From Ostrinia nubilalis (taxonomy: Eukaryota > Arthropoda > Insecta > Lepidoptera > Crambidae), in assembly GCF_963855985.1 (NCBI RefSeq), contig NC_087099.1, positions 15,220,001 through 15,284,000 on the forward strand: a stretch of DNA of 64,000 bases. The letters are read 5' to 3'. The notes below the pieces were generated by a model. The model was not told where the DNA came from, made no database searches, and saw nothing but the letters and a program-made list of their open reading frames with translations. Within the stretch, counting starts at the first letter, position 1. The number at the start of each line of letters is the position of its first letter. The position numbers and the translations under genes are program-made. Of this stretch, positions 26,801 to 60,400 are shown in pieces.

Positions 26801-29800
26801 TTCCTCTCCCCAGGTCATAAGCTGGGCATGACTTCCCCCTCGGCCAGAAGTTGGGTATGATTTACCCCTCTCCAGGCCCGAAACTGGGTATGACTTGACC
26901 CCTCCCCCTCCCCCCAGGCCAGAAGCTGGGTAAGGCTTGCACCTCCCCCCAGGTCATAAGCATAAGCTGGATATGACTCCCCTTCGGCCAGAAGCTGGGT
27001 ATGACCCCCCCCCCCCCCATGCCAGAAACTGGGTATGACCCCCCCCCCATGCCAGAAATGCCAGAAACTGGGTATGACTTGACCCCCCCCCCCTAGGCCA
27101 GAAACTGGGTATGACTTGCCTCTCCCCCCCTCCCACCAAGGCCAGAAGCTGGGTAAGTCTTGCCCCTCCCCCCAGGCCATAAGCTGGGTATGACTTATCC
27201 CCCCCCCCCAGGCCAGAAACTGGGTATTAGCATCATATTATGTATTATTATGTTCAATACATACAATCATTAAGTCACACTCACCCCCAACCGCGTCTCC
27301 GCATTGCATCGAATCCTATGAAAATGTGGTTTTTGGACATAGCGATACTTATTTTTCACAATTTTTATTTTTTTAAATTACTGGTCGATAGGTTACTTTA
27401 TTTTGATGAATAAATGTTATTAAAAGTTTTTTTCTAAAACTGATAGTTTAGCAGGAAAAAAATATTTTCCATCCCAATAGTACGCCGGCTGCGCTCGATT
27501 CGGATATAATGACGTCACGCGGCCCTGCGTACGTTGACTTTTAGCGGCAAAAACGGCCTATAGTCCAGTCATTATAGTAAGTTCACCTCGGAATTCGAGA
27601 TACCCAGCTATAAGTCTGTAAATACGTGTATATTGACACCCTAAAAGTTGTCTCAAAACCTACATATGGTAGGGTGTAAGCAACTATTAAATTTCAAGGT
27701 CAACGGTCACAAAAATCGGTTTTTTGCGCTTTTTTTAGAAATATCTCATTTCCTGTGGGTTTTTTGCTATTTGTATTTATTATCAATATTGTAGAATACT
27801 AAATTCTCTACAAATTTTGTTTAAAAACTTTTTTTATACGGTGAACCGTTTTCGAGATAGAGGGCGGAGAGCGCGCGGTCACTGCATCACTTCAGGTCTA
27901 CTTAAGCGGTTTAGATTTTTCATACAAAAGGAGTTTCCCGCTAATTCCTGTGGGAATTTCGGGAATTCCTTGTTGTAACTAAGCTTTGAGTTTACTAAGG
28001 TACCTACATGCCAAATTTCAAGCGTCTTAACTTCCGTTAAGCTTTTAGATTTTTCATACAAAAGGATTTTCCCGCTAATTCCTGTTCCCGTGGGAATTCC
28101 TAAGTATACTATAACCTGCCCAGGTGTATGAAGAATAATTGTACCAAGTTTCGTTAAAATCCGTCGAGTAGTTTTTGTTTCTATAAGGAACATACAGACG
28201 GACAGAATTCTATACATGAAATATATTTTCAAAATAACTATCAGGGGGTGATTAGTGATCGATACTGATGCCAAAAATGCAATCAGTAAAATTTTTGTCT
28301 GTCTGTCTGTCCGTCTGTATGTTCCTTATAGAAACAAAAACTACTCGATGGATTTTAACGAAACTTGGTACAATTATTCTTCATATACCTGGGCAGGTTA
28401 TAGTTTACTTAGGAATTCCCACGGGAACAGGAATTAGCGGGAAAATCCTTTTGTATGAAAAATCTAAACGCTTAACGGAAGTTAGACGCTTGAAATTTGG
28501 CATGTAGGTACCTTAGTAAACTTAAAGCTTATTTACAACAAGTAATTACCGAAATTCCCACGGGAATTAGCGGGAAAATCCTTTTGTATGAAAAACCTTA
28601 ACCGCTTAAGTTGACCTGAAGTGATGCAGTGACCGCGCGCTCTCCGCCCTCTATCTCGAAAACGGTTCACCGTATAAAAAAAAATTTTAAACAAAATTTG
28701 TAGAGAATTTAGTATTCTACAATATTGATAATAAATACAAATAGCAAAAAACCCATAGGAAATGAGATATTTCCAAAAAAAGCGCAAAAAACCGATTTTT
28801 GTGACCTTTGACCTTAAAATTTAATAGTTGCTTACACCCTACCATATGTAGGTTTTGAGACAACTTTTAGGGTGTCAATATACAAGTATTTACAGACTTA
28901 CAGCTGGGTATCTCTAATTCCGAGATTCTTACCTAATTTAAGCTTAAATGACTGGACTACTATGTTTATTACTTAATATCTTCGTAAGTAATGGTCCGAT
29001 TTGGATAATTCAAAAAGATATATCTTTCTTATGTCTTAAAGATTAACGTAGATACTAGTTTTATTGAATTTTCTACAACAGTACTGATCCTCATTGAAAT
29101 ATGCAAACATTAGGTAAATGTAATCTTTTGCCGAGGGTAGAGTAAAATATTAAGTTACTGACAGAATTTATGAATAGAAAATAATGACCAATGATTGGCC
29201 TATGTAGAAGAAATGTTCATCATCATCATCATCATTTCAGCCATAGGACGTCCACTGCTGAACATAGGCCTCCCCCAATGCTTTCCACGTTGATCGATTG
29301 ATAGCGGCCTGCGTCCAGCGCTTCCCTGCTACCTTTACGATGTCGTCGGTCCACCTTGTAGGTGGACGTCCCACGCTGCGCTGCTGCGTGCCAAGAAAAG
29401 TAAGGTACAGCATTCAAGGTAGTAACATCGTCTCTCGACTGTACTGCAAATTCTGAGTTTTGACTGTACATTCATTCTGTGACAGACCAATATTTAGGCA
29501 GGCGAAGCCACGGGCAAAAGCTATTTAGCTTTAAAGGTCAGTACAGTAACAGTAGGTCGACCAAAGATGTCCCGGCTAATCCTGTCGGCCCCCCATTAAG
29601 TGGGGGCGTGTTGGGTCCCGTGTAGGGCGGGACATCCGCGGAAGGCGCCTTGGTAGTTCCTAGTACCCAAGGCGCCAACCACTATGCGCCAGAGGGAACA
29701 CCTCAGGTTTTTAGTGGGTTCGAGCCCCACATAACCTGCCGTCCCCCGGCGGTAGGTATGGATAGGCCATTTTCCTGGGTAAAAAAAAGGTCGACCAAAG

Positions 29801-45466: not shown

Positions 45467-48400
45467 ATGAAGAAAGAAAGCGCGTCGGACTACGAGAAGA
45501 ATCGTGATGAGGACGAGGTGTTTTTTGAAGATGCATTCGAGTTGGCCGGTGAGTAATGTTTTGAAATCAAACACTGATGTTTTGAATGCATATTGCGTCA
45601 TTTTTTAAATGTATGCGTGTCGCACATTTTAAAAAAAGATTTCAGTTTACAATAGATAATCCAATATCGTTAATCATTCTGCTGCTGAATATTTGCTCTA
45701 ACATTTAATTTTCTTTTCCCAATTTCTTTTATTTGATGAGATTAACATTTTTTTATTTTCAAAATGATCTTCTTGTTTCATTTATAGTTAACAAAACTAT
45801 TTATAGTTATAAATCGTAAACATTTTAACGACAAAATTATACGTTAAGAGGATACATTTATGCGTCTCTTTATTGAGATCTTACAATACATGTTTTTTTA
45901 ATATTTTACCCTACCCCAGTGACTAAGTAAATGGAAGGTATAGATTATTATCAGTATGATGTTACAGTTTGTTTGTTGTGGTAATAAAAATGAGGCCGTT
46001 GCAATATTGATCGCGGTTATCTTCTATGATATTTTTGTTATCGTAATAAAATTCACTTTGACAGTCATAAATCAGTAATTATTTTGTAGATTATTATGTA
46101 AGATTGTAACATTATTTATAAATTTCTGTTTCTTATTTTAGGTCACAACTGACCGTTTTGTGTTGGGTACAATAAAGATGATTTTATCTATTTATTTAAA
46201 TGTTCTTAATCAAGCTTACAAAACATAATAATTTAATGTAGTACAATTTATTTCAGGCAATTAAATACCATAATAAATAACAATAGCAATATTTTTGTCG
46301 TTCAATAAAGAAAATCTAGTTGTGCATACTTATTAGGTAGGTATATATACACAGCACCTAAAACGAATAGTAAAATAGCCAGACCTGCTTTACATAACAA
46401 TTCAACATGATTATTCATATACCTAACTGATAACTCATAATTATGTAGTAGGTACCAAAATTCATAGTAGGTACCTATCTATCCGAATATTTTACGAGTA
46501 AGCTGGTTATAATTTATTATGTATTTTAAAGTTTTAAGTGTAAAATTGTCACCATAATAGCTATTTAAATAATCGAAGAATCTATGATCTGTTACTACCA
46601 ATAATTTTTTTTTTCGTGGATATAAAACCACCACCGATAGCAAGTTTTAAAAATTAAATAGCATTATCCTTGAATTAATGTTTTATAATAATAGATTACA
46701 GTTTCTCGGTAATATCATACCTACATTAGATACACGTGGATAGGCTCTGACATTTAAAAACATTAACGAAATAAAATAGAGATTTGTGATCCGATTTATA
46801 TGTAGAATTAACTAAATTTAGCACATTTCATTTAAATTATTCTTGATCACAATCTCATCACACAATCACAATCCCAAGCTATTCAAACATTTCGAACTCG
46901 ATTCGACTGAACTTCAATATTTTACAGTCATCTTCACAGACTTGCATTTAAAAAGATTGGTAGTGGTTTTTAGAAAACTAGCCTATTGTATGTTAATTAA
47001 CTAACTAACTTAATACAAAATGTGGATCATTCGTCAGAACATTGTTAAGTGTTTTCTACAGATGTAGTCAATCAGGGGGAACACCACTGTGCACCGTGTA
47101 TTTGGGACGCACTTGCACTTTCTAAAACCGATCAGTGGGAGTCATAGTCGCAGACGCAATCGGTCATATAATTGCATTCACCGAATGATTTAAATAGAGA
47201 AGTCGTTGGTGGCCACAAAATAATGAAGGTGTAGGTACTTATAGACTATTAGCTGTTGCCCGCGGCTTCACCCGCGTAAAATTTAGTTTGTCACAGATCG
47301 TCATAAATTATAGCCTATATGTTAATCTGGGTTATAAACAATAATACTGTAAAGTTTCATCAAAATCCGTTCAGTAGTTTTTGCCTGAAAGACTAACAAA
47401 CATGTTGACATCCAGACATCCATACAAACTTTCGCAATTATAATATTAGTAGGATAGTACACCTCCTATAGAAGGTGAATCTATATCTACTTGTGACCTA
47501 AGATTCCCACCTCTCGTTCCCACCGCTGCAACTCCTGTGTAGCCAGGATCTACAGATTGACCGCTAATAAAAACTCAACCAGTGAAGTCAAGCTTGTCCC
47601 GGGGGAAAGTTTAAAACTGTCATTGAACCCGCAACAACATTAATCAGAAGAACATAGGAGGAGTTCGAAATTCGAAGATAAGGTTCGAGTTTCCTCCATT
47701 GCCGGCCGTTTGGTGTAGTGGTTCAGAACGGACTACTATGCCGAGAGGTCCCGGGTTCGATTCCCGGTCGGGCAGAAATTGAAATGATGAATTTTAATTT
47801 CTGTGACGGGTCTGGGTGTTTTCTATGTATAATATGTATGTATTTACAAAAAAAAAGTATTTAAGTATGTTTATCCCGTCATCTAGTACCCATAGTACAA
47901 GCTTTGCTTAGTTTGGGACTAGAGGCGCAGTGTAAAATGTCCAAGGATATTTATTTATTTATTTATTTAGTTATCGTTTCTATCCTGTATACTTATTAAT
48001 AGGCTGTTTGTTTTCCATCAAAATCAAATTAAAATAAGTTGTTTGTATGGGAATAGGCCTGCTTTAGGCGACACGTGTAAGTAAGTACTCGAAGGTTCTG
48101 TTTTGCAAACTCATAAGTCAACATTTCATACATAAATCTATAATCGACGTTTTTATTAGGCAGTTTAAGGAATAATGAATGTATAATTCTGTCCGGTTCC
48201 CTATTAATGAGCATGTTATGGTATCGAAGGTAGGTGTACTAATAATTTTTGAAATGGCTAGCATTTTTGTCCGCGGCTTTGATCGCGTGATTTTTGGTAT
48301 GACTCAGAAAGAGGTTATCGCGCGCAAAACCAATACAAAAGATTAAGGTTGTTTTTCCCTGGGTACCAATCGTACAACTAGTGGCCGCCTGCGACTTCGT

Positions 48401-51400: not shown

Positions 51401-54400
51401 TAATTATTTTAATCATCATTATAAAAATATAATAAATTCTACATAATTTGCTACTTAGCAAGATTTCTCGAACTCTATTTAATTTGGCGTCTACTTTTGC
51501 TAGTTCGAATCTTTAATTTTGAAATGAAAATGAAAAATGAAAATGAAAAAAGTATTTATTTAAATAGGCACAGGTTACATTTTGCATTACAAAATAATAA
51601 AGGCAAGATGTGTTAACAATAACAGTAAGAAAAAAGAGCAAGATGTATATCAATAACAGTGGGCCCCAAACTAGGCATAGCCTGTATCTTGGTGGCCCAA
51701 ACAGTGCAGTTTGCAAAATTAAAGTGACTGGCACAGCGCGGTACAGTTCAGCTCAATTTACTATGAATACCTACTATGTAATCTTTCTCTTTATAAAATC
51801 AACTGCATAAGTGCTTACGTACGTTGCTACTGACTGTGTGACTGTGGGTCTATTTATGTACTTATTTGTTTGTTGCCCGATTACGTGACCAAAGTGTTTA
51901 ATGTTTAAGCTTCAAGCCGACTAAATAAAGCCAATTACTCACTGGGTCATCGACTCCGCAGCCAAACTTGTTAATTTATACATATACAGGGTGTTTGGCG
52001 CATCGTGTGCCAAAATGATTTGACGGATAGAATGGGTCATTTCCTATATTTTCAGCCCCCATAACACGTTCCATGCCAGGCGGCTACTTTTTTAATAATT
52101 TTTAGTAATTTCACCAAAATACCCAAATCGCATCATTTAATTTCAATTTAAAAAAAAACTACTAGGCGTAGCCTCAAAGTAAATATTTTGTGAAGTTTTT
52201 ACCTGCTTTGAACTTATTGTAAAGTAAAAAAAAAGGTTCAAAATTCAAAATTTGAATATCAGTCCGAGTAGAGTCAATGCACTAATTTAAGGAATTTGTG
52301 AAGTTGTTGTTATTATTTAAACAAGATTAGTATACCGTTTGAATGGGGATAGACTAGAGAAGTTTTCATAAAATCCGAAGATCGCTATCTCTTTTAATTT
52401 TTTTATTATAGCCATGTAAACTTAATTGTTCAGTTCATTTTTAACTTTTCGGAAAACTTCAAAGCTGAATTAAAAAAAAACTAGATGATATTTGCCAGTA
52501 AATTTAGATTTTATGCAACCCTACATCAATGCACGTCAAAACAAAATATTTACTTTGAGGCTACGCCTAGTAGTTTTTTTTTAAATCGAAATTAAATGAT
52601 GCGATTTGGGTATTTTGGTGAAATTACTAAAAAAATTCATATAAAAGTAGCCGCCTGGCATGGAACGTGTTATGCGGGCTGAAAATATAGGAAATGACCC
52701 ATTCTATCCGCCAAATAATTTTGGCACACGATGCGCCAAACACCCTGTATTGTTTGATGGGTGTGGGGTCACTTTCTTATTAGCGGGTTTGGAGAGAATG
52801 GAGAGCACTTTGGTTTGGGACTCAGCTTATGCAATGTTTAGTTTAACTCTCTCCATTCGGGAGCTATGAGTTCCAGATGGGACACACAGAAGAGGCACAC
52901 TATGTAGGTAGAATGGTTCCCACTCCAATTGGGATATTAAAGGCTTGAATCAATTACCTAAAAAGGTTTCAATCAAAATCAAAATCAAAATTATTTATTC
53001 AGTTTAGACCACAAGTGGCACTTATGAACGTCAAAATATTATTATAGAAAATAATAAAAAAAAGAAAAGGTAGCCCTTATGGGGAAAGGTAGCCACTATA
53101 GTGGAGGAGGCTCATAGTCCAGCAGTGGACTGTAAAGGGCTGTTGATGATGATGGGGCACTTTACATGTCTCCTTATCTTTTGGGCCCTACCAGTTAAAT
53201 TTACAGTTTAATTACCTGCTGCAAATGACAAACTGACTGACTTAACTACGTCAGAAATAGCTTCGGCAGCTCATAAAGTTTTGAGATTTGTAGAACAAGA
53301 ACAGGGGAAGTCAAATAAAAGCTTGTAAAAATGGAAGGGTGTATCAAGCGCAATATGTGGAGTCAGCAGAGAAATGAAATTATATTTCAAACGTTTTTCT
53401 TACTATTTACAATCATTTTCACGTATTTGTATGATTTTTAATTTGTCCAACACTTATGTACATAACTCTAATATGCCACAAAACATTCTGCGATTCATCA
53501 CAGTCATGGTAATGATGAAATTTGTTCCAAAATGATAACAATATTCTACCTCTTTCTATCGCACACTTGTACACACATTTTTGTCATGTTACACAATTTT
53601 GTCGATTCTTTATTTTTACGAATGTAGAGCGACGACCTTATTGCAATATACTCGTAGGAGTAATGAAATACATTATCGATTTAATAAAGGCGTGTTGGGA
53701 AAGGTCTATGATATCTACATTATTAAGTACCTATAGAGGAAGATGTTACCATTAGCATAGACGTTCTTAAGTAGATCTAGAGTCTCAACAAAGAATTGCA
53801 GCCTTGCCAAGGATCTTTAAATCTGCGAAGTAGGCTAGGTACCCAAGTAGGTTTAAAATTACAAACATTTATCTCAGTCCCTCGTTGAAAAAAATATGCC
53901 AAAAAACATGTGTCTGAAATTACTAATTTCACGTTCATATAATATTAGTCCTAAAGAATAGGTAACATAATAATAACTATCAGATTTGATTGAGTTCAAA
54001 CACAGACACGCACAACATTTTTAATGTTAACTGGTTAAAAAACTGGGACTGTCTGGCGATGCAGCCTATGATGACGTAACTCGTAAATCTATCTTTTAGT
54101 GCTTAAACTTGTCGCAGGTCATGACCGGTTTTACTGCCGGGTATTATAAAAAAACATACAGTCGGATTCAGAACCTCCTCCTTATTTTGAAGTCTGTTAA
54201 AAAATCAGTGGATAGGCTGCAGTCTCTTTATTGACGTAACTCATAAAGCTATTAACTGCCTCTGCCTCTGAAGTCTAGTGGTAAGACCTCCTGTATCAGA
54301 TCCAGAGGTTCCCGGTTCGATTCCCAGCGGGTGCGAAATTCTCGGTTTGGTTCGTGATAGGGCTTGTTCTAAATCCCAACTTAATATTATAAATGCGAAA

Positions 54401-57400
54401 GTAACTCTGTCTGTCTGTCTGTCTGTTACGCTTTCCCGCTTAAACCTCGCAACCGATTTTGATGAAATTTGGCATAGAGATAGTTTGAGTCCCGGGAAAG
54501 AACATAGGATAGTTTTTATCCCGGTTTTTGAAACAGGGACGCGCGCGATAAAGTTTTTCTGTGACAGACAAAATTCCACGCGGGCGAAGCCGCGGGCGGA
54601 AAGCTAGTCTTCTCTAAATCTGTTCCTCCAGTTCCTCTATGATTGAGGATAACAGCTGTATCTCGCTTTACGACCTGCTCGTCCTTTCCATCTATACTTA
54701 TAATAAATCTGTAGAGAGGTCAATTAATTCTGTACATGAAATATATTTTCAAAATAACTATCAGGGGGTGATTAGTGATCGATACTGATGTCAAAAATGC
54801 AATCAGTAAAATTTGAAAATTATAAATAACTTGAAAAAATCGAACTGCCTAATCAGTAAAATTTTTGTCTGGTGGATGGTGTGTTTAACACTTTTTAAAG
54901 TATTTTTTCTTGTTCCAGGCCATGGCCGTTTCAACTACCTGGTGCTGTTCACCAGCGGGCTGATACTCCTCAACGTGTCCATGGAGTCGGTCGGCATGAG
55001 CTACGTGGTCACCGCAGCAGAGTGCGACCTGCAACTCTCCAGCCAAGACAAGGGGCTGGTGACAGCAGCTGCTTTCATTGGTATGTAACTGGACTAACAG
55101 GGTTCTGTCATCATCATTTCATCTAACGCAGTACACCAGCCGCGGGGGAAGCTAGTGGGTTATGTGGGGTTCTCCTTGCCAGAAGGGTAGGGCCTACCAC
55201 TCGGTCAGCCATGTGAGTCGGGAACGCGGGACATCACTATTGGCGTTTTGGTTCAAGCATTCATCCACATCCGCTCCTGACCCTGATTTAGGGTGGATTC
55301 GACCAAACAAGAGTAAATATTAATCTCTGAATAAGTCGTCAGTTTTAACATAATTTTCCATACTGAAACTGTCAATGTGCCAGTTATACCAGGAGTTAAT
55401 CTCGGATAAAAGTTTGGTCGAATCGGGCCTTAATAGGCTTAACCCTTAACCTCCTCCTCCTGTTTATCTTCTGATTCATTTCGTTGCGGGTTCCATTTTC
55501 CAATGACAGTTTAACTTTCCCGTGGGACAAACTTGGCCTTCACTGGTTAAGTTTTTGTACATTCAATAAATTCGTAAACATTCATCGTCAAGAGAACAAA
55601 AACGTAATGCATACCTAATAATCGTATATCATTTGTGATAATGTATTTAATGTATCTAAAGTAACAGTTGTTACAGTATTACGTCACTTAAATTCAATTA
55701 ATTGCAGAAGTAGGTGTTAATGTTACCATTAAATTAAAGGATATTTTCAATGGATGACGGTAAAATAAAATGTCAAAAAAACCAAGTCTCGCAACTCAGT
55801 TGTTCTACGGTAAAAAGTTGTGAGATCCATGTAATACCAAGTCCAGGCCAGCAAATCTTTAACGTTTTACATAAATTATTGACTTGGCCATCGCACTAAA
55901 TAATTTAATTTACACGTGTTTTCATGCGATGGCCAAGTCAATATATTTATGTAAAACGTTAAAGATTTGCTGGCCTGGACTTGGTATTACATGGATCTCA
56001 CAACTTTTTACCGTAGAACAACTGAGTTGCGAGACTTGGTTTTTTTGACAAGTATTGTTTTTGATGGGATCTCATTTCTTTTTGTATTTTGTAGACAGCA
56101 GTTATGTATCTAGAAAACTGGACCGAAATTGAAAAATTTTACTCGACTTGGCGGTTGCACTACCGTGCCCCCAAATATCATTTCTTTTTGTATTTTGTAG
56201 ACAGCAGTTATGTATCTAGAAAACTGGACCGAAATTGAAAAATTTTACTCGACTTGGCGGTTGCACTACCGTGCCCCCAAATATTTTAGTTTTTCCTTGA
56301 TTCATACACCAAACACTACTTATATTCCAAATTTGAAGCTTCTAGGTCTGCTAGAAGTGCCTTAGAGTTTTGATGATCGGTGAGTCAGTGAGTCAGTGAG
56401 TCGGTGAGTCAGTCAGTGAGTGACAAAATTAAGTAACTTTGACCCGTTATAATTCTTAAACTACTGGTTCAAATTGAATGAAATTTTAAATATACCGTGT
56501 CTTTACAATGCCTGCATAGCTAATGAAAATTCAGCCTTCTAGTTGTATCCACAACGAAGTTACAGGCGGTCGAAAATGGCCTGAATTGCTTCGAGAAAAG
56601 GATGGTACGGCCGTGCCGCTTTTTTGCTCGACTTGGTGGGGGCACTGCCGTGCCCCCAGATATACTTCAATTTATTATTCTGTCTGAATTAATTAATCAT
56701 GTGCCAGACAGGCCTTATTATTGCTGCCCCATTCCTGATCAAGGAAAAAGCGTTATCTAAAAGGCACTTGAAGATTAATTTGACAAGTTAGCTGAGTATA
56801 CGTTAAACTGGTTCCTATGTACTGTAGCCAACTCGATGCAATAAAGATTTATGACTATGACTAGAACTATTAAGCTTAATACCAAAGCATTTAAACTGGT
56901 TGAAGCCTAGCTTTTGCCTACGCCTACATAACACTAGATAATATTTTGTCTAACTTTACGAAGCTGTAGTATTATTCTTAGCCTTAATGGTAGATATATT
57001 TTGCGTACATCTGGTAATCTTGCAAGATTACTGATGTTTATGGTTTTACCTTTAATTGTGACTATTTTACTAGGCCATTGACTCACCATCACAAGGTTGA
57101 GTGGCTAGATTAGATACATTGTGATGCAAGGATTACACATTTATGCCATTTATCTATCTGTACTTACATTACAATACTGTTTTACATTTTGAAGATAACA
57201 ATGTATTCGTTTGTTTGCCATTAATCCGATCTTTCATTCGTACCACTGCAGAATCCTGTAGAGGCTGTCTATGAAGGCAGTTCTGGAAAATTTGTCAGTC
57301 TCTGATCCTGATAATTGTGAAGAATTTCGCTGAGTATGTTCCGATATGTACTGCGGGCACTTCTCACTACTCCACACCCACTAGTGAGAGCACTAAGCAG

Positions 57401-60400
57401 TCATCGCAGTGCTATATCGGAACATACCTAGGTACTCTATAATTATCATCGACTTTTCGTTGTTCCTATGGGGCTATCTGGGCGAACAGTCGGGCCGTTT
57501 TCCCTGAATAACTTCATAAGGTCAAATGTTCGAGTCCCACTAGTAACAGTTGTCTTTTTGAAATGAAAATTTTCATCCATCATCTTCTCCAGGCATAATC
57601 TGCACATCCTTCACTTGGGCTATCTGGGCGATGGACTGAGGTGCCGCTACTTGATATACTTCACAAGGTCAAGGGTTCGACTCCCACTTATTTATTTATT
57701 TATGAATAGAACTTGTGGCAGTTTTCTTATTCAAATACATAAAGTGTTCTTGAATCACATCTGCTCATCCTCTCCAGATATAATCTGCACCTCATTCCTC
57801 TGGGGCTACCTGGGCGACCGGCTGCGCAGTTGTTCCGTGATGCTGCCCTTATTCCCCGACTAACATCACAGGGTTAAGGGTTCGAGTCCCACTAGTAGCA
57901 GTCCTCTTTTTCAGATGAAAAAGTTCTTCTATCATCTTCTCTAGGCATAATTTGCAATTTTGCACGTCTTTCTTCTGGGGCTATGGGCGACTGACTGGAG
58001 TGCCGCTTCTTGATGCTGGCATTGTTCCCTGAAACACTTCACAAGGTCAAAGGTTCGAGCCCCACTAGTAGCATTCCTCTTTTTCAAATGAAAATGTTAT
58101 TATCATCTTTTGCTCATCCTCTCCAAGTATAATCTGCACGCATTTCTGGGGCTACCTGGGCGACCGTCTGGGGCAACGCTCCGTGATACTGCCCTTATTT
58201 CCTGACTAACCTCACAAGGTTAAGAGTTCGAGTCCCACTACTGTTAGTCGTCTTATCCAAATGATAGTGTTCCAATCCGTCTGCCAAGTGTGGAGATTAT
58301 GGCAAAACCCTCCATCCACTAAAGTGGAGGAGGCTCTTAGTCCAGCAGTGGGCTGTAAACGGCTGTTGGTGATGATGACGAGTTCAGTGTTCTTAAATCA
58401 TCTTCTGCTCATCCTCTCCAGGTATAATCTGCACCTCATTCCTCTGGGGCTACCTGGGCGACCGGCTGCGTCGTTGTTCCGTGATGCTGCCCTTATTCCC
58501 TGACTAACTTCATAAGATTAAGAGTTCGAGTCCCACTAGTGGCAGTCGTCTTTTACTGATGAAAATTTTCTTCTATCATCTTCTCTAGGAATAATTTGCT
58601 ATTTCGCACGTCTTTCTTCTGGGGCTATGGGCGACTGACTGGAGTGCCACTCCATGATTGTTCCCTGAAACAATTCACAAGGTCATGGGTTCGAGCCCTA
58701 CTTCTGGCAGTTGTCTTATTTAAATAAAATGTTCTTAAATCATCTTCTGCTCATCCTCTCCAGGTATAATCTGCACGTCATTCCTCTGGGGCTACCTGGG
58801 CGACCGTCTGGGGTGCCGCTCGTTCATATACTTCACAAGGTCAAGGGTTCGAGCCCCACTTGTGGCAGTCGACTTTTTCAAATGAAAGTGTTCTTGAATC
58901 ATCTTCTGCTCATCCTCTCCAGGCATAATCTGCACCTCCTTCCTCTGGGGCTACCTGGGCGACCGGCTGGGCCGGCGCTCCGTGATGCTGCCAGCCATGG
59001 TGGCGTCCGCCATATTCTCCGTGGCCTCCTCCTTCTCAACCAACGTCTGGATGCTGTTGGTGCTGAGGATATTGACGGGATGCTTGTGAGTTTTAAATCT
59101 TTGAAACTTCAATTTGATTTAATAATTATTATTGACGGGATTGCTACCATGTACCATCGGCAACTGTTACCTATCCATTGCCTGTCATGTCTCGTTCTAT
59201 CGCAAAGAATCACCATTTGATGAGAGCGAGAGCAAAAACGGAAATGGATATTTAACAGTGTGGCCGTGTGTACTTGATTAAATTCGAAACTTCGAAAAAT
59301 GTTTAGAAAAAAATGTGGATTTATGCAGGCAGTTGTTATAGGTAGACCACATTTGGATCTTGGCTTTGATTAGGCACCTTCCTGAGGTAAAAAGATGGAA
59401 TAACAGTGGAGTTTCATGACATGTCGTCTTAAGTCCATTTGCCTTGGGAACTTTCAAAGAAAAACGTCAGTGGTGCGTTTGCAAGACCGCACATAACTAA
59501 CTGTTGATGATTAACATTTACTCGTATAATACAACTTTTACAACGCACTTGTCATACATGTGTGGTGCAGCAAAGAGATGACTAATATTCAGCTCAAAAC
59601 ATCTTATTTGAAAGAGCCCTTTTATGTATTTTACCAACGATCTGGTAAAGGTCGCGGGAAGAACCTGGATGCGGGCAGCGCAGGACCGTTCATTATGGAA
59701 AATCTTGGAGGAGGCCTTTGTCCAGCAGTGAACGTCATTTGGCTGCAATGACGATGTATTTTTCCAGAGTGTCAGCGTCCAGCGCCACAGTATACGCGTA
59801 CTTGGGCGAGATGCACATGAACACCCGTCGGGCGTCGGCCATCGCGTGGGGCTCCGTCTTCATATCTTTCTCCTTCATCACGCTGCCAGGTAACACCATA
59901 TTCTGGTCATCAGATAGTTATCCCTACTTTCCTATCCATATTTCCCTAATCAATACTAATATTATAAATGCGAAAGTAACTCTGTCTGTCTGTCTGTCTC
60001 GCTTTCACGCCTAAACCACTAAACCTATTTTGATGAAATTTGGCATAGATATAGTTTGAGTCCCGGGAAAGGACATAGGATAGTTCTTATCCCGGTTTTT
60101 GGAACAGGGACACCGCGATAAAGTTTTTCTGTGACAGACAAAATTCCACGCGGGCGAAGCCGCGGGCGGAACGCTAGTAATATTATAAATGCAAAAGTAA
60201 CTCTGTCAGTCTGTCTTTTACGCTTGCAAGCTGAACCAATTTTGATGAAATTTGGTTTAAATATAGTTTGAGTTCCGGGAAAGGACATAAGATAGTTTTG
60301 AAACAGAGTCACGCGCGAAAAAGTTCCGTGACAATGTTTCACGCGGGTGAAGCCGCGGGCAACAGCTAGGTCGCACATAAATTATCCATACGAAGTGCCA

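Follow-up and report, generated by a model that had tools for sequence, protein, structure and literature searches.

The window analyzed here is a stretch of 64,000 nucleotides of the Ostrinia nubilalis genome, and all positions refer to it. The SV2-like gene D contains a tandem array on the plus strand (57459..58922) that directly precedes its third exon. Exon 2 (54919..55080, plus strand), assigned from its open frame and splice signals, ends in phase 1 at the donor TTG/GTATGT. The real exon 3 (58923..59085, plus strand) starts with IICTSFLWGYLGDRLGRRSVMLP and has an acceptor that scores 13.98 and a donor that scores 9.77, or 8.7 if the matrix is built without it; exon 4 of the gene follows on the same strand (59768..59889). 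The peptide of exons 2–6 is a major facilitator superfamily (MFS) protein (Pfam MFS_1 and Sugar_tr). Its relatives include an Achroia grisella protein named 'synaptic vesicle glycoprotein 2C-like' (78%) and a Diatraea saccharalis protein (80% over 92% of the query), and the host gene therefore combines the MFS domain and the SV2-named relatives of an SV2-like MFS transporter. Two protein searches listed no match that is the product of gene D in Ostrinia; they scored 7997 and 7996 candidates, these being the proteins with most words in common with the query and not more than 1.75 times its length.

A paralogue of gene D lies on the minus strand at 37–34 kb of the window and was compared in five pieces with the O. 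nubilalis protein P0004. Three pieces were 100% identical, one was 97.6% identical, and the fifth gave 74% because the alignment overruns exon 3 at its end; by eye, the peptide encoded by exon 3 is identical. For P0031 of O. furnacalis, inspection by eye shows two residue differences in the compared exons. These comparisons place the window in Ostrinia, most likely in O. nubilalis. Exon 3 of the paralogue is without an array, and the array sequence matches a single exon-sized place there. In Choristoneura fumiferana, the predicted proteins P0008 and P0009 (MSG28_008312, 008313) of a related SV2-like gene carry consecutive locus numbers; one of them departs from the family after exon 2 and the other starts in exon 4, and exon 3 is thus absent from both models.

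The sequence-only reading of this DNA had proposed about eight degenerate units ahead of exon 3, most of which repeat the acceptor and the start of that exon. This description was confirmed by Tandem Repeats Finder (TRF), which detected periods of 159 and 173 bp, by a direct-repeat search, which found eight families within the array interval, each of 2–8 copies, and by eight aligned copies. Both searches show copies placed head to tail at a regular period. The unit alignment that had been suggested as a check was made by cutting the repeats at a common tail motif; pairwise identity was 72–89%, and the repeat that ends in exon 3 is 77–88% identical to the seven others. Each full unit consists of a tail, the exon 3 acceptor region and roughly the first 50–80 bases of exon 3, whereas the rest of that exon is continued by the last copy only. 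An acceptor and exon-start motif occurred five times with at most three mismatches (in four units and at the real site) and was absent from 100 shuffled sequences.

Seven units carry the acceptor region, and their extents from the acceptor position to the next tail motif, all on the plus strand, are U2 (57593..57659), U3 (57778..57864), U4 (57945..58037), U5 (58128..58210), U6 (58422..58508), U7 (58589..58673) and U8 (58764..58831). U1 (57459..57512, plus strand, edges by eye) is a truncated copy at the left edge that comprises the exon-like part only and lacks an acceptor. The tail of the last repeat occupies 58832..58890 and includes the B-box-like GGTTCGAGCCC; the other seven tails, which share the common motif, start at 57513, 57660, 57865, 58038, 58211, 58509 and 58674 on the same strand. 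Successive acceptors up to the real one are spaced by 185, 167, 183, 294, 167, 175 and 159 bp, of which the longest interval holds an insertion of ~113 bp in the repeat after U5 (58273..58385, edges by eye). We take this insertion to be SINE-like; 62 nt of it (58316–58377) are 92% identical to 53093–53154. One array copy also holds a short TTTA-rich insert. The units are of two types, with an acceptor region that either is shorter (U2, U4 and U7) or resembles that of the real exon (U3, U5, U6 and U8), and U4 and U7 have an additional 8-nt insert in the exon-like part. Moreover, the U3–U4 block recurs as U6–U7 (57760–58014 and 58404–58658, 92% over 255 nt), which indicates that growth of the array took more than a single round.

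Other repeats are present in the vicinity. Directly left of the array is a 94-bp stretch with 14-bp inverted ends (57334–57427) that may mark, or may have truncated, the left edge of the array. The same intron includes a large, near-perfect, foldback-like inverted repeat with arms of ~120 nt by eye (55780–56056) and a 106-bp sequence repeated perfectly in tandem in two copies (56072–56284), which presumably is recent or recently homogenized. Elsewhere in the window, TRF detected another tandem array, which is C-rich, has a unit of ~35 bp and contains CAGGCCAGAAGCTGGGTATGACTT in that unit (26811–27227).

The tails provide a hint of the origin of the non-exonic part of the unit. All eight tails match a tRNA-like B-box motif with at most one mismatch. 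There are 27 such matches in the window, 10 of which lie in the array compared to 5.8 expected. A repeat ~10 kb from the array, at about 47715–47800, weakly resembles the last tail and by its look may be a tRNA-derived SINE. Positions 47746–47775 of this repeat, which was chosen after seeing the sequence, agree with the last tail at 23 of 31 columns (P 0.001 by letter shuffling, 0.007 against 61-mers of the window) and gave P values of 0.002–0.073 and 0.004–0.13, respectively, with the other tails. A second repeat (54270) gave P < 0.05 for two of the eight tails, and a third place (29690–29740) contains 15 nt of B-box sequence that are identical in the last tail and gave P values of up to 0.006 over the eight tails; both places likewise were selected post hoc. 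ARAGORN found no tRNAs in the window. No Rfam family reached its gathering score in the window, and the array produced one match at chance level (E 3.4). On these resemblances, a SINE origin of the tail is plausible.

Acceptors were scored with a small weight matrix derived from 14 acceptors of the SV2-like genes in the window; for scoring, the real site of exon 3 was excluded from it. Leave-one-out scores of the real acceptors ranged from 2.5 to 14.0. Compared to the score of 13.98 for the real exon-3 site, the acceptors of U6 and U8 (13.66 each) and U2 (12.57) were nearly as high, in agreement with the earlier claim that several unit acceptors match the real one. Values for U4, U3 and U7 were 10.5, 9.69 and 8.56. 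In U5 the CAG at the old position is altered to CAA and a shifted AAG scores 2.29. Thus, the AG is kept in six of the seven units that have the acceptor region, and all six sites fall in the top 1% in relation to 7083 AGs outside the array, where 71 AGs score at least 8.5 (0.57 per kb per strand). In U6 and U8 the acceptor is followed immediately by a GT (AG/GTATAA).

Donors presented a different picture. The 13 real donors of the window, a small set from which the donor matrix was built, scored 4.2–11.5 in leave-one-out tests. The three top GTs in the array (4.21, 4.27 and 4.27) are at the level of the two weakest real donors (4.2), compared to 9.77 for the donor of exon 3. The best donors 30–300 nt downstream of the six strong unit acceptors scored 3.47 (U2), 1.98 (U3), 3.95 (U4), 1.24 (U6), 4.27 (U7) and 3.47 (U8); the highest of these, downstream of U7, is CAG/GTATAA at 58764. 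The string aag/GTTAAG, which had been suggested as a possible donor in some units, occurs once (58219), scores −0.99, which is below the median GT, and is not credible as a donor; its counterparts in other units scored −2.05 to 0.67. None of the 85 GTs in the array scored 5.0 or more, whereas 6.2 were expected (naive P 0.002), although this shortage is not taken as evidence of selection because the GTs over eight units are non-independent copies of perhaps ten ancestral ones. The units therefore are strong acceptors with donors that are weak at best, weak rather than absent.

Splicing from exon 2 to any of the seven unit acceptors leads to a premature stop within 1–40 codons. The stop follows after 15 codons in U2, 16 in both U4 and U7, and one in U5. 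As stated previously for the units at 57778 (U3) and 58422 (U6), the motif WGYLGDRL is read in frame, and a stop is reached after 28 codons. As the units end in non-coding tail, a stop is expected for any such duplicate and shows little. If joined to the exon-3 donor, exons that start at the unit acceptors would be 322 nt (U8, with the stop at 58883), 497 nt (U7), 664 nt (U6) or longer for the others, compared to 163 nt for the real exon. Separately, a frame that differs from the coding one runs without a stop for 183 codons across the last units and exon 3 (58669–59220); a protein search with this long frame (58669–59217) among 592 candidates found no relatives at E values up to 10.

Selection on the acceptors was assessed on the unit tree and by simulation. 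On the tree, the 16 acceptor columns with at least seven letters required seven steps, or 0.44 per column (P 0.10), whereas all 137 columns averaged 0.745. Other blocks gave 0.55 (exon positions 1–30, P 0.12), 0.86 (exon positions 31–60), 0.70 (B-box part of the tail, P 0.43) and 1.0 (rest of the tail) steps per column. Acceptor and exon start were more conserved than the rest when combined post hoc (P 0.022), and the minimum of a 30-column scan (11 steps) fell over the same region with a corrected P of 0.13. When neutral mutation was simulated at the divergence of each unit, with an acceptor counted as kept if its AG was retained and it scored at least 8.5, six or more of the seven acceptors were kept in 16% of 20,000 runs (P 0.16); the simulation treats the units as independent and hence understates retention by descent. 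Codons that differ from exon 3 divide into synonymous and non-synonymous as 1/3 in U3, 2/2 in U6 and 5/1 in U8, which are too few for testing. These results would fit an absence of selection, weak selection, and exchange between the units and the selected exon alike. Of the earlier proposal of decoy 3′ splice sites, the strength of six of the seven acceptors stood, but their retention is not clearly above that expected neutrally.

The age of the array can be gauged from exon 3, for which the Ostrinia sequence is IICTSFLWGYLGDRLGRRSVMLP and the Diatraea sequence IISTSFLWGYLGDRMGRRAVMLP. Units U3 and U6 read IICT, DRL and SVMLP, and U8 reads IICT and DRL; these residues are Ostrinia-like and are lacking in the Diatraea relative, which implies either duplication after the split from Diatraea or exchange with the exon. 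In viral contigs, from which records near to the genome of the window perhaps are excluded, there were no exact matches for one tail motif and one acceptor motif, and none of 84 stretches encoded a relative of exon 3.

The array probably is an old intronic minisatellite that was seeded by the exon-3 boundary, perhaps together with a SINE remnant, and whose acceptors were inherited passively. A segment that extended from the intron, possibly from the SINE remnant, into exon 3 would have been duplicated in tandem, after which unequal exchange would have expanded the array, in part by copying a block of two units at a later stage. With the gene kept intact by the last copy, the upstream copies would be free to decay, and the strength of the unit acceptors would be a legacy of their strong ancestor rather than a result of selection for decoys. 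The unit acceptors would mostly be passed over as exon 3 has the only strong downstream donor. Any leak would most likely be occasional use of the U8 acceptor (58764) with the exon-3 donor, which would yield the 322-nt form of exon 3 with its premature stop. In a transcriptome-wide study of competing 3′ splice sites, the preference for the upstream one of two similarly strong acceptors, which is seen when the flanking introns are short, is much reduced when they are long, and an overall preference for upstream acceptors still is reported (PMC9225289); from the latter, some use of U8 would be unsurprising. The fallback interpretation of the sequence-only reading, in which the end of an exon seeded a satellite in the intron, thus fits best and with the fewest assumptions. 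It is favored by the repeat structure and the higher-order copy, the lack of a strong donor in any unit (at best 4.27 compared to 9.77), the retention P value of 0.16, the B-box-like motif of the tails and the alignment of the last one with 47746–47775, and the Ostrinia-type residues in U3 and U6 that are expected of a lineage-specific duplication. Counting against it are the position of the 30-column minimum over acceptor and exon start, the post-hoc block P value of 0.022, the survival of six of seven acceptors although the repeats differ by 11–28%, donors that are weak rather than absent, the small splice matrix, and support for the SINE tail that ranges from P 0.001 to 0.073 with a repeat chosen post hoc.

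A selected bank of decoy acceptors, at which assembly of U2AF and U2 on several strong sites would delay or divert splicing of intron 2 and thereby lower or tune the output of gene D, somewhat in the manner of the OGT decoy exons, is unlikely. The top-1% rank of six of the seven acceptors and the 30-column minimum of change over the acceptor both speak for it, and decoy exons are reported to work via spliceosome assembly although they are seldom included (PMC12017769). The OGT decoy is described there as having weak 5′ and 3′ sites, so weak donors in the array are compatible with such a bank; however, the 5′ sites of that decoy also are reported to be needed (PMC12017769), whereas the best downstream donors here score 1.2–4.3, and the P values for retention (0.16) and acceptor conservation (0.10) count against it as well. 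The related suggestion that the units are cassette poison exons, included between exons 2 and 3 and leading to nonsense-mediated decay, is very unlikely. By matrix score their acceptors would be usable (six of seven at 8.5 or above), and although all seven lead to stops within 1–40 codons, the stop was inherited with the non-coding tail and carries little weight. A U7 exon ending at 58763 would employ CAG/GTATAA (4.27), which equals only the weakest of the 13 real donors, and the best donors past the other five strong acceptors score 1.24–3.95, with aag/GTTAAG at −0.99. Recursive or dual-specific splicing, in which the AG/GT at U6 and U8 would let a second splice to exon 3 correct a mis-splice, is if anything more improbable still. 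Both units do read CAG/GTATAA, and a tandem array of dual-specific AGGT sites, with motifs weaker than those of single sites, is reported for polyubiquitin (PMC10809524). But the regenerated donor, TTG/GTATAA, would score 3.22 (4.27 in place) compared to 8.4 for the donor of exon 2, and GT is present at just two of seven acceptors. Furthermore, the real exon of the paralogue also begins with GTATA, so that the GT in U6 and U8 may derive from a glycine codon, and recursive segments in flies are reported to be nearly all >1 kb and in very long introns (PMC6110457).

Tandem arrays frequently are misassembled, and the copy number of this array could be wrong in the assembly. An array that is itself an assembly error nevertheless is highly improbable, as duplicated reads would not yield copies that diverge by 11–28%, an insertion in one copy and a TTTA-rich insert in one. 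Hardly credible is descent from a former cluster of exons used in a mutually exclusive way: tandem copies of the start of exon 3 do sit upstream of exon 3, but the units hold the exon start only and are not full-length copies, as the second half of the exon (58999–59086) is found once in the window. The units also have no strong donor, and there are no inverted repeats of at least 20 nt in 57000–59400. Rather doubtful, finally, is a copy-number-dependent brake in which each copy, with its strong acceptor and weak donors, would add a site that competes for U2AF/U2 and so retards intron 2 splicing or redirects it, such that repeat number would tune expression, with the two AG/GT copies allowing a second splice to correct some mis-splices. 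Most likely, therefore, the acceptor copies belong to a DNA repeat that is tolerated and do not form a dedicated device of gene control.

Intronic minisatellites and tandem duplications that include an exon boundary are of a known kind. The array resembles these in its head-to-tail units of ~160–185 bp, its higher-order repeat and its decayed upstream copies, but differs in that the unit carries a 3′ splice site of near full strength and a coding motif. With the decoy exon in OGT intron 4 (PMC12017769), it shares splice-site-like sequence in an intron of a coding gene, a stop if included and weak 5′ sites; the OGT decoy is described as a single exon in which both kinds of site are weak and the 5′ sites are needed, whereas the array consists of many copies with strong 3′ sites and with weak 5′ sites that have no fixed place. 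The dual-specific sites of polyubiquitin (PMC10809524) similarly are splice sites multiplied by tandem duplication, with AG/GT found at two array units; unlike the polyubiquitin repeats, the units are not intact coding monomers, GT follows only two of seven acceptors, and the donors are weak. More than one acceptor per downstream donor is also the situation in the study of competing 3′ splice sites (PMC9225289), which deals with pairs of sites, compared to up to seven candidate acceptors over 1.3 kb here. Judged by titles and the openings of abstracts, an array of this kind is not described in any of the papers listed by searches on poison and decoy exons, on acceptor duplication and repeats within introns, on recursive splicing and exon definition, and on SV2; the nearest case among them is polyubiquitin (PMC10809524). 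If the array is only tolerated, it would constitute a natural test of acceptor choice among near-equal sites that share one strong donor, with copies in graded decay. If instead it is functional, the level of gene output could be determined via splicing by the number of repeat copies, which would be a simple path from satellite expansion to regulation.
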